From: Jaapia argillacea MUCL 33604
Lineage: Eukaryota > Basidiomycota > Agaricomycetes > Jaapiales > Jaapiaceae
Assembly: GCA_000697665.1 (NCBI GenBank)
Contig: KL197711.1
Span: 1,827,209-1,891,208, forward strand
Direction: 5' to 3'
Length of the DNA: 64,000 nt
Shown here: positions 39,791-53,864 of the stretch, piece after piece
Position numbering within the stretch: position 1 is the first letter of the stretch
Layout: each line of letters opens with the position of its first letter
Program-made: the position numbers and the translations under genes
Notes under the pieces: generated by a model
Told to the model about the DNA's origin: nothing
Database searches by the model: none
What the model saw: only the letters and a program-made list of their open reading frames with translations

Positions 39791-40384
39791 TCAGCAGCAC
39801 ATCTCGCAAGGGCAGCCTAAGTTTACGAACAAACCAATCAGTCGCAACACACATGTAACGGAACAAGGAGGACTTACAGATAATGTCTGCGAAGCATTCG
39901 CAGCAACCCTGGAGAAAGCACGGAAGATGAGTTTAGCATGTCCCAAAGGGAACATAGGAGAAGCCTCGGTGCGAACCTTGCAGCATTCTGGGAAAGAACA
40001 AAAAGGTTAATTTAGTTGAAATGGCCAGTGGGAAAGGGTGAAAGGCATACCGAAGCAGAAGAAACACTCGAGAGCTCCGAGGAAGCAGTCCTACAACAAC
40101 GACAACCCAAAGTCAACATCCCTCCCTTTGACTATATCGGTAAAAATGGCAGGAAAAAGTCCTCACCTTGCCGACACCTCCACCACGGAGACGCGAAGCC
40201 TTCTGACGCTGGCATTCCTGATTGTTGGAGTTCTCAGCGGGGTTCACCACCGCTATTCAAATCGCAATCAAAACCCTTATCAGCAAGTGTCCGCAGCGCC
40301 TGCATTCGCTAGCGAGCACATACACATCTGCATAGCGCCCTGGGGCTGGGCAGTGGTAGCGGTCTTGTTGGTAGGGACGTTCAT
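39791..40384 (-). CDS. small cysteine-rich membrane-associated protein (CYSTM-like)
   Basis: Six exons on the minus strand, 40384..40324, 40252..40167, 40090..40051, 39987..39977, 39908..39878 and 39816..39791, give only 84 aa. The N-terminal half is Gln/Asn/Thr-rich and ends RGGGVGKDCF. The C-terminal half holds nearly all of the 14 cysteines: ECFFCFECCKGCCECF, then ADIICCPCEMCC at the very end. Cys-rich tails of this kind occur in fungal small proteins and in plant CYSTM proteins, where they associate with membranes through palmitoylation and are linked to stress tolerance or metal handling. The model is supported because all five introns have GT-AG ends, phases agree, and the joined exons give one uninterrupted Cys pattern. 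Exon 4 has 11 nt. Confidence 0.8.
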
Positions 40385-41858
40385 GATGAAAGAAATGGGT
40401 AGAAGATGCGGATGGTGGAGTGGAGGAGAGGTGGTGGAACGTTGTTTGGGACCTTTATAGGAATTGGATCTAGGGCTGTCGTTTCGCCTATGTTGGGTCG
40501 GGTTTCGGTTGGATGACGTTTTGAGACACGCCCCTCCAGCCAGGAAATTGCCGTCCTGATTGGTCACTATTTATGGTTTTTATGACATCGTCGAGGGCTG
40601 TGTTCGGCTCAGCACCACGAGGCGGAGTCGGTGTTTCCAATGTCCGACCTTGAGCGAGCTCGAGGCCTGCGTGGTTTGCGCGACGAGAGCGGTGATGGTG
40701 TTCAATATTGGAGGGACCACCAGTGACTAGCATAGCCAGGAGAGGCAGACCACAGGAAGGCCAGAATTTACAGAGCAGAGAAAAGGAAGTGTCGCGTCAT
40801 AGCAACGCCTATCTCGAACTCCACTTCTCCAAATAGTTGTGGTCAATCAAGGAAGCAATTTGGCACCAGAACAATCGGCCTCCGTGTTGTGCAGCAGACG
40901 GGATCCCGCAATTTGGACAATAACCTCGCTATTTATCCGTCCGCGCTCCTGGAGGCCGAAAGGGGCAGCACAGAAGGAGGAGACTGGTAGGTGACGTCGA
41001 TCCTCGTCCACAAAAACCCACGTACTTACCTCCATCCGGTCGTGCCGAAGAGCCAGGTGGAAGTATAGGCGAACCGAGGTGGGGGTTGAGATAGTGGGAC
41101 GGAAAGAGCGCAATCGCAAACGAATAGCATTCCTTTTATCTGGAGGCATTGATCATCAAAAACTAAGCTCAAGATCGCAATCAAAAAACATCGACATCCC
41201 TCGTCGTCGTTGCGCCATTTTTTGCAAAGAGGTTCAGCTCATGGTCATTTGGTCTTCAGCCACAGTTGCCACATTGGGAAACTGATTCAACACTTTGTGT
41301 CAACGTTGAAGGCATACTTGCTTACTTGGGGCCCTTCGAAATCCAAGTCTCTAGTCTCCAAGCTCCGTCGTTCTCTGCATCGTCCAGGCTGCATCGGCAT
41401 TCATGTAACAGGCGCTGTAGACCTCACCCGTCATATTATTGCGCCTGCACAATGACCCATGATCACCCTTGCATTGAAGCAAGACGTGCTCCACTACGCC
41501 GACAGGAACATATCTTCGGCCAGCTGTCCAAGTATCTTAACTCTGCAACTTGCACTGGTGACATACTCAGCTGCTCCGGTTATCCCACTCAAATCCCACT
41601 CTTGAATTCGTCCTCTTGGAATGTCTGCGTCATCGACGACTTCTTGCTCCTACCTAGTGCTAGCTTGTGCTGGGCGCTTTTCGGATCTTTGAGACAAGGA
41701 TGTGGACTTTTGGGTTTCTGCTCGTCAGAACCCCCTTCTCTGTGATCTGGTTATGCTTATTAGGCCGATGGTTCAAGAGAGGTTGTGCAACACCAAGTCA
41801 CCCACCAATACCACTTTACCAAGGTCATTTTTTGACCCCCGACTTGATTATCCCTTCA
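40385..41858. other. sparse intergenic stretch
   Basis: Promoter side of the Cys-rich gene and of the first CsbD-like gene. It contains one small low-confidence gene (40847-41149, listed separately); nothing else is supported. Confidence 0.35.
40847..41149 (-). CDS. possible small two-exon gene, unknown function
   Basis: Exons 41149..41030 and 40948..40847 on the minus strand would give 73 aa. The intron has a strong GTAAGT donor and a pyrimidine-rich CTCCAG acceptor, both in phase 0, which is the main support. The peptide is basic (RLRLRSFRP near the start) with no recognised domain or signal peptide. It could be a non-coding transcript. Confidence 0.3.
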   Translation of the reverse strand: MPPDKRNAIRLRLRSFRPTISTPTSVRLYFHLALRHDRMEVSTWVFVDEDRRHLPVSSFCAAPFGLQERGRINSEVIVQIAGSRLLHNTEADCSGAKLLP

Positions 41859-42687
41859 ATGTCTTTATCCGATAATAACCCAGACGACAAGTACGGTCGT
41901 CGTGATCAATGGGATCCTTCAGACGGTACGTCATACCCTCTCGTCCCTTCCTCTCCACTCCCGTATTTCTCTTCCCGCTCACCGTATCGACCCCCTTACA
42001 GTGGTCTCAAACGCCGACCCTACCTCTCTCCAAACAACCTACCCCCAACCCGAAGGCACCCAAGACTTCTCCACTCCTTCCGACCAAATTCTAGGGCACC
42101 CTCAACCCCTAACCGCCGCCGCTCGACCTACCTCCCCACCCCAAACAATCAGACCAAGTGAAATCCAAGCCCACCAATCTGGGCGTGGTGCCGTCGGCGT
42201 AGGGCCTACTAAGACTACCGCCACTCCCCCAGGCGGGTATCACGCGATGAAGGCTGGTGCAGGTGCACAAGGAGATCCTAGGTATTGGAGTGATGCTGAG
42301 GAAGGAGACGTCGTTAAGAATCGGGAGCAGTACCAGCAGGGGAAGGGACATGAGAAGAATGAGTTTGATGATGATGATGATGAGAGTACTGGTAGGATGC
42401 GTGCGGGCGGCGGTGCTACTGGTGCTCACGCGGGGGCGAAACCGAAATTTACTGATAAGGTGTTTGGTGGGTTTTTTTGAGTGTTTTGTTTTGTCGTTCG
42501 TTGATGCTGATTGGAGTTCTTTTTCGGATGCTGTTTAGGTACTATGGAGGAAGTTGCTGGGAAGATGACTAGGAATGCTGGGATGCAGGAGAGAGGAGAA
42601 GAACGCAAGGTTTGGTTTTTGGGTTCGTTTTTATGGTTGTGGCGAGCTGATTTGGGTTGTTTTTCAATGTAGACTGGTGGGTTCTGA
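41859..42687 (+). CDS. CsbD-like protein, family member A
   Basis: Exons 41859..41925, 42002..42466, 42539..42609 and 42673..42687 give 205 aa. The N-terminus carries the family signature YGRRDQWDP; the middle is disordered with an acidic run (DDDDD) and WSDAEEGDVVK; the C-terminus reads KFTDKVFGTMEEVAGKMT and NAGMQERGEERKTGGF. The last segment resembles the CsbD-like stress-response domain (PF05532), a short repeat-like helical motif around G-x-x-E-x-x-A-G-K. Function is unknown; homologues are often stress or stationary-phase induced. Exon lengths of 67, 71 and 15 nt recur in member C. Confidence 0.75.
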
Positions 42688-43201
42688 CCAGGATATGGAA
42701 TGGAACGTCAAAGCAAGTGAGATTACTGTACGGCTGTCGACTTGAAGAATTGTGACGTGTGTTTGGGCGCCTTGCGTAGTCTCCGACTAGTATGTGCTGT
42801 TCCTTTATCAGTCTCGATTCCAAGGCCGATGGCTGTCTACAAGTTCGTCGTGGATGGTGGTCCTGAAATATCTTTGTTGTCTATTCGCAAGCAGATCCGA
42901 TTCTAAGACAAGAAATCATCGTGATGTCAAGGTCGACCCAGCCAATGCTATTCCGGTGTCAGGGTACGAATTTCAAAGTCCCTTCTTCTCAGCAATCTTG
43001 CCATCTTGTTCTTTCGACCTAGTGGTGATGGGGACGAACGACGCCGACGATTTGGACTATTGAGTTCATTGGGTTGTTTTGTCGTGTGGCCTTTGGGGCT
43101 CCGGTTTTCTGCTGATAAGACGGGGTGCTCGATGGTTGAACGTTGACCTTATCGTGTTACACAACTTTGTTAAGAGTTGGACTTGGGGATTTTGTGACCA
43201 T
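42688..43201. other. intergenic stretch between CsbD-like members A and B
   Basis: 514 bases with no supported feature. Confidence 0.35.
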
Positions 43202-43670
43202 ATGGATGACACCAGCTCCGAGGGTTACAATCAGTTTGGTCGTCGTGATCAATGGGATCGTAACGATGGTATGTTGTACCGATTCTATTCGTTTCCCTGA
43301 CATTTGTTCGAACATACCTTGGGCCTCCTCTGTATTTCTCGCTAATTCGTACACGGCAGCATATCCTAACGCTCCACCAGCTCCCGCACAATCCAACCCG
43401 CCGACAACGACTCACGTAAATGTCAAAGACGAACTTCCCATTCCATCCATTTCAATCTCCTTCGACCCAACCTTCGTCGAACCCACCTCCACCGACAAGC
43501 CAGAGGGTGGGTCGACGAGTACGGTAGAACCTTTGGCAAAGAAGGAGATGAATGCTGGTGATGGTATTGGGTCGGATGGGAGTAGGACCGGTGGGTGGAG
43601 TGATGCGGAGGAGGGTGAGGTTGTTAAGAGTGCGTATCAGTATCAGCACCAGGGTCGGGGGAAGGTGTAG
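43202..43670 (+). CDS. CsbD-like family member B, lacking the C-terminal domain
   Basis: Exons 43202..43268 and 43360..43670 give 125 aa. The first exon (67 nt, FGRRDQWDR) and the segment WSDAEEGEVVK match member A, but the frame ends at TAG 43668-43670 before the KFTDK and CsbD-like part, and no copy of the 71-nt exon was found downstream. It is either a truncated duplicate or a specialised short form. No signal peptide; disordered throughout. Confidence 0.6.
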
Positions 43671-46126: not shown

Positions 46127-46757
46127 CTCGACTCTCAATCAATAGGTGGATCGCTATAAGGAGAACAATAATGTCTCAGCACGTTGGCGAAGTTTGAAGC
46201 TCCGGCGATCCCACAATTCTTCCCTCTAATATGACTCTCCGCTTCAAGTTCTGAATCTCAGCGTCATGCATATGTCTCCATTGCACAAGCTTCAAGTTTC
46301 AAGGGGCCCGTCATATTTCGCACCTATACCAGTTCTGCTAGGCGACCGTCATCGTCATCCATAAATACTCACCATCAAGACAAAAATACTCTTGGATCTA
46401 TATGATGTCGTTGCTCAGCTCTTTGCTCCCATGAACCAAGGGTATCTGCGCTCGAGCTCCACTACGCCAACTAGCGCCAGCGATGTTCCACGCCAGTGTG
46501 GCATCGATGGTGCCTTTTGTGTCTTCTCTAACTTTGGAGGATACATCCTGGGAAGGCACTGCGTCATCTTGGAGTTCACTTGGTACAACGTCATTCACCA
46601 ACGAGTCCTCTCGGAAATGTTCCAGAGATGTGGACTTCGTGTTGCCCGGCTTATGGATTTTGCTTATAAGGCGGATCTTTTCGCTCCAAGTTCCTCACTA
46701 TTACTCTCAACATCAGCATTTGAATCACTTTTCAATCGCAATACTTGATACTTCGAC
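46127..46757. promoter_or_regulatory. divergent intergenic region, F-box gene / CsbD-like member C
   Basis: These 631 bases hold a TTATAAG element near 46665-46671, about 90 bases before the ATG of member C, and no supported ORF. Confidence 0.35.
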
Positions 46758-47540
46758 ATGTCTTTCAATAGCAACCAGGATACCAACGAGTTTGGTCGTC
46801 GTGACCAATGGGATCCTACGACTGGTACGTTCATCACCTATTCCCCTACCTCCCTTCCCCTCAAGGCCGTTTTGTTAACACTCGTGCCTATACGAACAGT
46901 AGCGTCCAACGCTGACCCAACGTCGTTCCAAACCACAACATACCCCGGAGCGAGAGGCGAAGACTTTTCCTCGACTTCTTCAGACCCAACATCGATCAAC
47001 CCGACACAACCCCTATCCTCGTCTGCCATCAGACCAGGCGATATTCAGCCTCAACCTTCAGGGCGTGCAGCTGTACCATCAGCTGCGCCTGGTGTCGCCA
47101 CCAGGTACCAGGAGGATGAAGGGTATGGAACTGGTGATAGGGAAGTGATGGGAGGACAGGGGGAGTGGAATAGTAGTGCTGAGGGGTTGAGGGCTCAACA
47201 AAAACAACAGCAGGCGACGAATTTGGATGAGGAGAATGATGGGACTTCAGGACCTGGGGCTGGAGCTTATACCAGTTCGGGTAGTCCTACTCCTGGTGGA
47301 AAGCCAAAGTTTACTGATAAGATGATTGGTAAGTCTTCTCTCGCTCGTTTGTGGATTGAGTAGTGGCTTATGTTGTTGGAACTTGTAGGTACGATGGAGA
47401 AGGCTGCTGGGAAGGTTACTGGGAATACTGTCATGCAAGAGAGGGGACAAGATCGCAAGGTTTGTCTCCTGTTGAACTATCTTTTGGGTGTAGTGATTTC
47501 TGATTATGTATTCTCTCTTTCGTAGACTGGCGGACTTTGA
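46758..47540 (+). CDS. CsbD-like protein, family member C
   Basis: Exons 46758..46824, 46900..47328, 47389..47459 and 47526..47540 give 193 aa. N-terminal FGRRDQWDP, a Gln/Ser/Thr-rich disordered middle, then KFTDKMIGTMEKAAGKVTG and MQERGQDRKTGGL. Exon lengths 67, 71 and 15 nt and all intron phases equal those of member A, and the sequence SNADPTS opens exon 2 in both, so A and C are direct duplicates. Probable cytosolic stress-associated protein, by family only. Confidence 0.75.
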
Positions 47541-52901: not shown

Positions 52902-53864
52902 ATGTCCAACTGGGATAACCAAAACACTTCTGGAGGCCGCCGTGGCGACCAGTTCGATGATACCACTGGCAGTGGAGATCGTAAGTTCCTTTCACGGGTA
53001 CAACCTTCATCTTGGTGCTGACTGTCTGTATGCGTTCTAGAATTTGGCCAGAACCAAGACCCCTCCGACGACACTTTCTCTCAAGGAGGTCAACAAGGTG
53101 GTCGTCAACAGCGTTTCGGCGGACAAGGCCAAGGTGGTCAGTTCGGCCAGGGTCAACAACAAGGTCAATTCGGCCAAAGCGGTGGCCAAGACCAATTTGA
53201 CGACCTTGCGTCTGGTGGTGGTCAGGGAGGTAACATCGGAGGGCAATCGCAAGGCCAGTATGGTGGCGATTCCAGCTACCCTGGTAACACTACCACTTCT
53301 GCTGCGATGGGCGCTGGGAGGATGGGGGGTCAAGGAGGTCAAGGAGGTTATGGACAGGGATCTAGTGGAGGTGGAGACTGGAGGGACGATGATCAGTTAT
53401 CTGGTCAGGGTGGTCAGGGTGTTTCAGGAGGATTTGGAGGTAGTGGAGGATATGGTGGTGGTCAAGCTCAAGGAGCATATAGTGGACAGGGCGGACAGGG
53501 TGGTTTGGGCGAGCAAGGTGGATTGGGTGGTAGGACTGGTGCTGGTGCTGGCGGCCAGGATTACGATGATGATAACGATGACTTGAGCGGAACTGGTGCC
53601 GGTATGGGTGCTGGAAGGTCTGCCAAGAAGCCCGGCATGGGGGACAAGCTAAGGGGTGAGTTTGCATTCTCGCCTTGTTGTGTGTTGTTGCTCATGTTGT
53701 GCAGGTGGCATGGAGAAGATGGCCGGCAAGGTGACTGGTAACACCGGTATGGTCGAGAAGGGCCAGGAGCGTACTGTGCGTTGATTATGTTCTTGCGCTT
53801 CACCTCATTCACTGATCTATACCTGTTTGTTCAGTCTGGTGGCACCGCCGGAACCGATTACTAA
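52902..53864 (+). CDS. CsbD-like protein, Gly/Gln-rich family member D
   Basis: Exons 52902..52980, 53041..53655, 53705..53775 and 53835..53864 give 264 aa. The N-terminus GGRRGDQFDD is a variant of the family start. The middle is a Gly/Gln low-complexity domain (repeats like GGQGGQ and FGQ). The C-terminus GMGDKLRGGMEKMAGKVTG and GMVEKGQERTSGG is the best CsbD-like match of the four. The third exon is again 71 nt. The Gly/Gln-rich part could drive phase separation or hydration-dependent behaviour as in other stress proteins, which is inference. A strong TATA box suggests inducible expression. Confidence 0.78.

Follow-up and report, generated by a model that had tools for sequence, protein, structure and literature searches.

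A six-exon gene of Jaapia argillacea predicted to encode a small protein with a cysteine-rich, possibly membrane-anchoring tail

The six-exon gene and its surroundings

The window that we analyzed is a stretch of 64,000 nucleotides from contig KL197711.1 of Jaapia argillacea MUCL 33604. On its minus strand, at 40384-39791, lies a gene of six exons and five GT-AG introns, which is very probably real on the evidence of the sequence. The exons measure, from 5' to 3', 61, 86, 40, 11, 31 and 26 nt, and the introns 71, 76, 63, 68 and 61 nt. The joined coding sequence of 255 nt, stop included, specifies 84 residues, 14 of them cysteines, with CCPCEMCC at the C-terminus. The original prediction had described such a protein, assembled from six exons, with its cysteines mostly in the last 35 residues and with one exon of 11 nt. 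We found the exons in place and joined as claimed, with 13 of the 14 cysteines within the 34 residues 51-84 and the 11-nt exon at 39987-39977.

Exon 1 (40324..40384) carries the ATG and the N-terminal polar head and ends in phase 1. Intron 1 (40253..40323, GTATGT...AATAG) leads to a stop if retained, as do intron 2 (40091..40166, GTGAGG...TGTAG) and intron 3 (39988..40050, GTATGC...CCCAG). Exon 2 (40167..40252) continues the polar head to the residues RLRGGGVGK, and the cysteine-rich tail begins in exon 3 (40051..40090), which encodes DCFLGALECFFCF. The microexon, exon 4 (39977..39987), supplies the remainder of a Glu codon and CCK, and the frame shifts if it is skipped. Intron 4 (39909..39976, GTTCGC...TCCAG) has the weakest donor of the five and is free of in-frame stops, as is intron 5 (39817..39877, GTAAGT...CTTAG); exon 5 (39878..39908) between them encodes GCCECFADII. 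Exon 6 (39791..39816) encodes CCPCEMCC and the stop TGA. Upstream of the ATG on the same strand are a TATAAA (40454..40459, 75 nt away), a CCAAT (40463..40467, 83 nt) and a second CCAAT (40563-40559, 179 nt), all three being motif matches alone. A scan of the window for bacterial promoters and terminators gave nothing useful for a fungus.

The genes of the window are intron-rich, and one encodes an F-box-like protein. Three plus-strand frames, at 41848-42480, 43143-43670 (among the frames near 43079) and 46749-47363, begin with a sequence like (F/Y)GRRDQWDP, and two of the three also end like KPKFTDK; they likely form a tandem family that encodes small hydrophilic proteins. Of these frames, those at 41848 and 46749 matched nothing in Pfam. 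A Gly/Gln-rich plus-strand frame at 53022-53738, also with no Pfam match, has an end, KKPGMGDKLRGE, that resembles the ends of this family. Near the left end of the window, a minus-strand ORF at 897-1730 contains an IBR domain (E 1.5e-9), and a cysteine-rich plus-strand gene from about 3906 onward resembles it; the two are probably related RBR-type genes.

Chance controls, composition and the search for relatives

Because splicing gives freedom in composing a frame, we counted how many cysteines any ATG could gather by free splicing. With generic splice weights that were not fitted to this genome, the search for the most cysteine-rich product from the gene's own ATG returned exactly the protein of 84 residues, 14 cysteines and five introns. 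At least 12 cysteines were gathered from none of the 7134 ATGs in three dinucleotide-shuffled windows, compared to 5 of 2387 ATGs in the real window, with some ATGs counted twice at chunk overlaps. Three of these five are in-frame ATGs of the six-exon gene; of the other two, one lies in the ORF with the IBR match and one in a neighboring gene that looks RING/IBR-like by eye. Under a laxer splice rule (GTNNG...YAG, products of 40-100 residues), at least 11 cysteines were reached from 0 of 23733 shuffled ATGs and from 4 of the 2245 distinct ATGs of the real window, three of them in the six-exon gene and the fourth in the IBR ORF. These counts confine such cysteine-rich spliced frames in the window to the six-exon gene and the IBR region.

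The base composition and the codon choice of the six-exon gene fit a gene. The GC content is 0.57 in the exons versus 0.46 in the introns. Measured against five long ORFs of the window that were presumed to be coding (one with a Pfam domain above cut-off, two with matches below it, one with none and one unscanned), the codon choice was matched or beaten by only 9 of 5000 random synonymous versions, and by none of 5000 when the cysteine codons were left out.

We searched for relatives of the protein in its own genome (43.7 Mb, 95 contigs) and in viral and prokaryote contigs, and found no credible one there. The protein search of the genome gave three matches, two of them pieces of the gene itself. 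The third, on contig C57 (E 0.062, 36% over residues 3-49), was taken as chance because its surroundings are low in complexity and broken by stops. A pattern for exon 6 found the gene and two places with one mismatch, on contigs C46 and C5, the former a stop-broken frame in a repetitive stretch. A pattern for exon 5 found the gene and three places with one mismatch, and its reversed control gave two. Judged by these searches, the gene is single-copy in its own genome. The 15 pattern matches in viral contigs included no relative. Of 23 in prokaryote contigs, one had been called a relative (L014, from a Sumerlaeota MAG; 45% over residues 45-70, with an E value of 3e-5 that refers to the candidates only); the matched stretch includes the 8-residue word used for the search, and we took it as chance. 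Searches of NCBIfam and of PDB sequences, run to an E value of 10, gave no hit for the protein. Words from the tail peptide matched the text of one paper, falsely, a cardiology survey, and the papers surveyed on fungal small cysteine-rich proteins describe no such protein, judged by their titles and opening abstract lines.

Competing readings of the cysteine-rich tail

The tail, residues 51-84, holds 13 cysteines and five phenylalanines in 34 residues, and part of it has the periodicity of an amphipathic helix. Its helical hydrophobic moment at 100 degrees is 0.551 over residues 61-78, with the peak at 100-110 degrees; when the tail was shuffled, 87 of 10000 versions attained this value, the window of residues being the best of several and the shuffles being handled alike. 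Residues 50-66 show no moment at that angle (0.06). Cysteine, phenylalanine and isoleucine fall on one face of the helix, and E63, E70 and D74 on the opposite one. The tail thus has a cluster of cysteines that share one face of the helix with hydrophobic neighbors, a feature of S-acylated peripheral membrane proteins, and its moment fits a helix lying at the membrane surface that would be held by several acyl chains. The head begins MNVPTNKTATTAQPQ and, by eye, has no hydrophobic stretch. The sequence RLRGGG, which precedes the tail from residue 41, is basic; it resembles the end of ubiquitin, presumably by coincidence.

The same cysteines could instead make the protein a metallothionein-like peptide, in which the 13 tail cysteines would bind copper, zinc or cadmium as a thiolate cluster and buffer the metal. 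The tail places its cysteines as CC four times, as CxC twice and as CxxC several times within 34 residues, spacings that would suit metal binding equally well. Metallothioneins are almost free of aromatics, whereas this tail holds five phenylalanines along with two isoleucines, two leucines and one methionine; the amphipathic helix with its cysteine face also speaks against a metallothionein, and the protein matched no metallothionein model in Pfam. We consider metal binding possible though unlikely.

The protein had been proposed to belong to the CYSTM family (PF12734), and this is the part of the original prediction that did not hold. The gene of six exons, the 11-nt microexon and the cysteine-rich tail did hold, and none of our results bears on the stress- or metal-related role that the prediction also raised. 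Pfam profiles gave no hit, at E values as high as 10, for the six-exon protein or for three pieces of its tail. The same genome encodes a canonical CYSTM protein (L005, at G000:C4 around 661 kb; four exons, 102 residues as joined, one donor being GTTTGT). This CYSTM protein, once joined, matched PF12734 with 43.6 bits (E 3.2e-11), and a single exon of its gene with 27.6 bits; the Pfam test therefore works here. A divergent version of the family, in which the tail would be an outlying cysteine-rich transmembrane module, would account for the common layout of a polar head and a cysteine-rich C-terminus in about 80 residues, and 5 of 23 tail residues are identical when the two proteins are aligned on a common phase-1 intron in a Glu codon. 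That identity was, however, reached by 4581 of 20000 shuffles, and BLASTP between the two proteins gave 10.8 bits (E 5.4). CYSTM proteins are described as having 3-4 consecutive cysteines in a C-terminal transmembrane helix (PMC10217909). No such run occurs in the six-exon tail, where the longest run of cysteines is two. The tail also departs from a CYSTM-type transmembrane helix of 5-6 cysteines followed by an acidic residue, with its 13 cysteines and its seven charged residues (50, 57, 63, 66, 70, 74 and 81). The best hydropathy over 19 residues is 1.39, compared to 1.61 for the CYSTM control, a modest gap. With the profile, BLASTP, the cysteine runs and the tail charges all against it, we rejected membership of the family, and a divergent CYSTM protein is a doubtful explanation.

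A further alternative is that the cysteine-rich tail is not made, intron 4 being normally kept or exon 4 skipped, so that the product would end in a cysteine-poor frame. Intron 4 is the least certain junction of the gene, given its GTTCGC donor and the lack of an in-frame stop within it. When 13 models from the gene's ATG were ranked by the score from these generic splice weights, the six-exon model came third (3.07), and two models that retain intron 4 (149 and 125 residues, eight cysteines each) scored 4.33 and 4.07. Candidate GT-AG introns were no commoner in the window (238) than those with control dinucleotides (224-317) and were therefore useless for training a splice model. Sixteen neighboring match pairs in chaperonin (TCP-1) genes yielded six clean introns of 53-70 nt; the filter let in GTA and GTG donors only, and these introns therefore say nothing on GTT donors. 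On the other side, removal of introns 4 and 5 gives a frame with eight more cysteines over 18 residues, which agrees with the cysteine-rich exon 3. With exons 1-4 fixed and the generic splice weights, none of 5000 shuffles gave a tail of at least seven cysteines; this null is beaten somewhat too readily, since shuffling often weakened the first donor. Among 1731 donor-like sites in the real window, one gave such a tail, with a score of eight that equals the gene's. A GTT donor is also used elsewhere in this genome, as GTTTGT was the sole one of the GT sites tried that preserves the frame of the CYSTM gene. We regard loss of the tail as improbable, and the six-exon form as the probable splicing of the tail.

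By computation, skipping of exon 4 yields a product of 103 residues with five cysteines and a Leu/Arg-rich end (GLLRMLRRHYLLPLRDVLL...). The 11-nt exon might then serve as a switch between the 84-residue, cysteine-rich membrane anchor and this 103-residue form, a suggestion that we hold to be quite unlikely. If it were correct, splicing would set whether a common head is membrane-bound or free, and would do so in a family covered by no Pfam model. An exon of 11 nt is unusual, yet it has precedents: exons as short as 6 bp in Phanerochaete P450 genes (PMC1184071) and as short as 1 bp in Cryptococcus (PMC3990503) have been reported. Very small exons are described as easily missed in Cryptococcus (PMC3990503), as are plant exons of at most 15 nt (PMC8831610), and by analogy it is plausible that genes with such tiny exons escape annotation. 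PMC11121469 states that no earlier work had described functional microexons in filamentous fungi.

Finally, it is very improbable that the plus strand is the coding one, with the ORF at 40038-40460 (ATG at 40146) specifying a small hydrophobic protein: this frame of 140 open codons, antisense to the first exons, has two hydrophobic stretches and a weak match to DUF7719 (E 0.02, 15 bits, under the cut-off of 25), yet its codon choice is ordinary, with 1649 of 5000 synonymous versions as good from the ATG and 3364 of 5000 over the whole frame, against the 9 of 5000 for the minus-strand gene.

A predicted lipid-held anchor and its counterparts

The reading that we favor is that the six-exon gene encodes a multiply S-acylated membrane anchor facing the cytosol, in keeping with the palmitoylated, membrane-bound protein that the original prediction had suggested. 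As a whole, this explanation, a real and single-copy gene whose product joins a polar head to an acylated, amphipathic, cysteine-rich tail, has in our estimate a probability of roughly 55%. The gene would be expressed and its protein made in the cytosol, where a polar head (residues 1-48), probably without fixed structure, would precede the cysteine-rich tail (residues about 50-84). An amphipathic helix at about residues 58-78 would lay its Cys/Phe/Ile face against the membrane and turn its acidic face (E63, E70 and D74) toward the cytosol. DHHC palmitoyltransferases would acylate several of the clustered tail cysteines, and the protein would then be retained at the plasma membrane or an endomembrane by lipid, with no membrane-spanning helix. 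The head would be left free for binding a partner, and the protein may have a role in membrane stress or in trafficking. A DHHC acyltransferase with many substrates, Pfa4, has been reported in the basidiomycete Cryptococcus (PMC4430228).

Were this reading correct, the gene would represent a small protein that is invisible to ORF-based annotation, with a membrane anchor divided among four tiny exons. The fungus would then also have cysteine-rich anchors that do not belong to CYSTM, and the gene would offer a compact test case for microexon splicing. If the protein proved widespread among related fungi and was annotated there already, it would be ordinary.

Several known systems bear a likeness to the predicted protein. 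Cysteine-string proteins, such as DNAJC5/CSP, and other multiply S-acylated clusters have, as the six-exon tail does, dense cysteines with hydrophobic neighbors that could take several palmitates; unlike DNAJC5/CSP, the present protein is without a J domain, and no relation in sequence was shown. In prenylated proteins of the Rab type, a Rab GTPase domain is combined with -CC at the C-terminus. The six-exon protein likewise terminates in -CC; it matched no domain of Pfam, however, and we do not assign it to this group. Fungal metallothioneins are likewise short and dense in cysteines with CC, CxC and CxxC spacings, and differ from the six-exon protein in its phenylalanines and amphipathic pattern. 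The basidiomycete microexon genes cited above, from Phanerochaete and Cryptococcus, similarly place very short exons between short introns, whereas the six-exon gene packs five introns into a coding sequence of 255 nt. The CYSTM family, with yeast YDL012C, YBR016W and MNC1 and Arabidopsis PCC1/PCM (PMC10217909), is comparable in that its members are small, likely membrane-bound and encoded in several short exons; unlike theirs, the six-exon head is not rich in Gln, Tyr and Pro. CYSTM proteins also have a cytoplasmic N-terminal element, predicted to be a beta-strand, to which a variable linker is attached; by eye, the six-exon head is without the YVQQ-like stretch of the CYSTM protein of the same genome. 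In Arabidopsis PCC1, a small protein, the cysteine-rich C-terminus is reported to provide both anchoring at the plasma membrane and dimerization (PMC3903633); by this analogy, a cysteine-rich C-terminus can tether a small protein to a membrane, as we propose for the tail of the six-exon protein.
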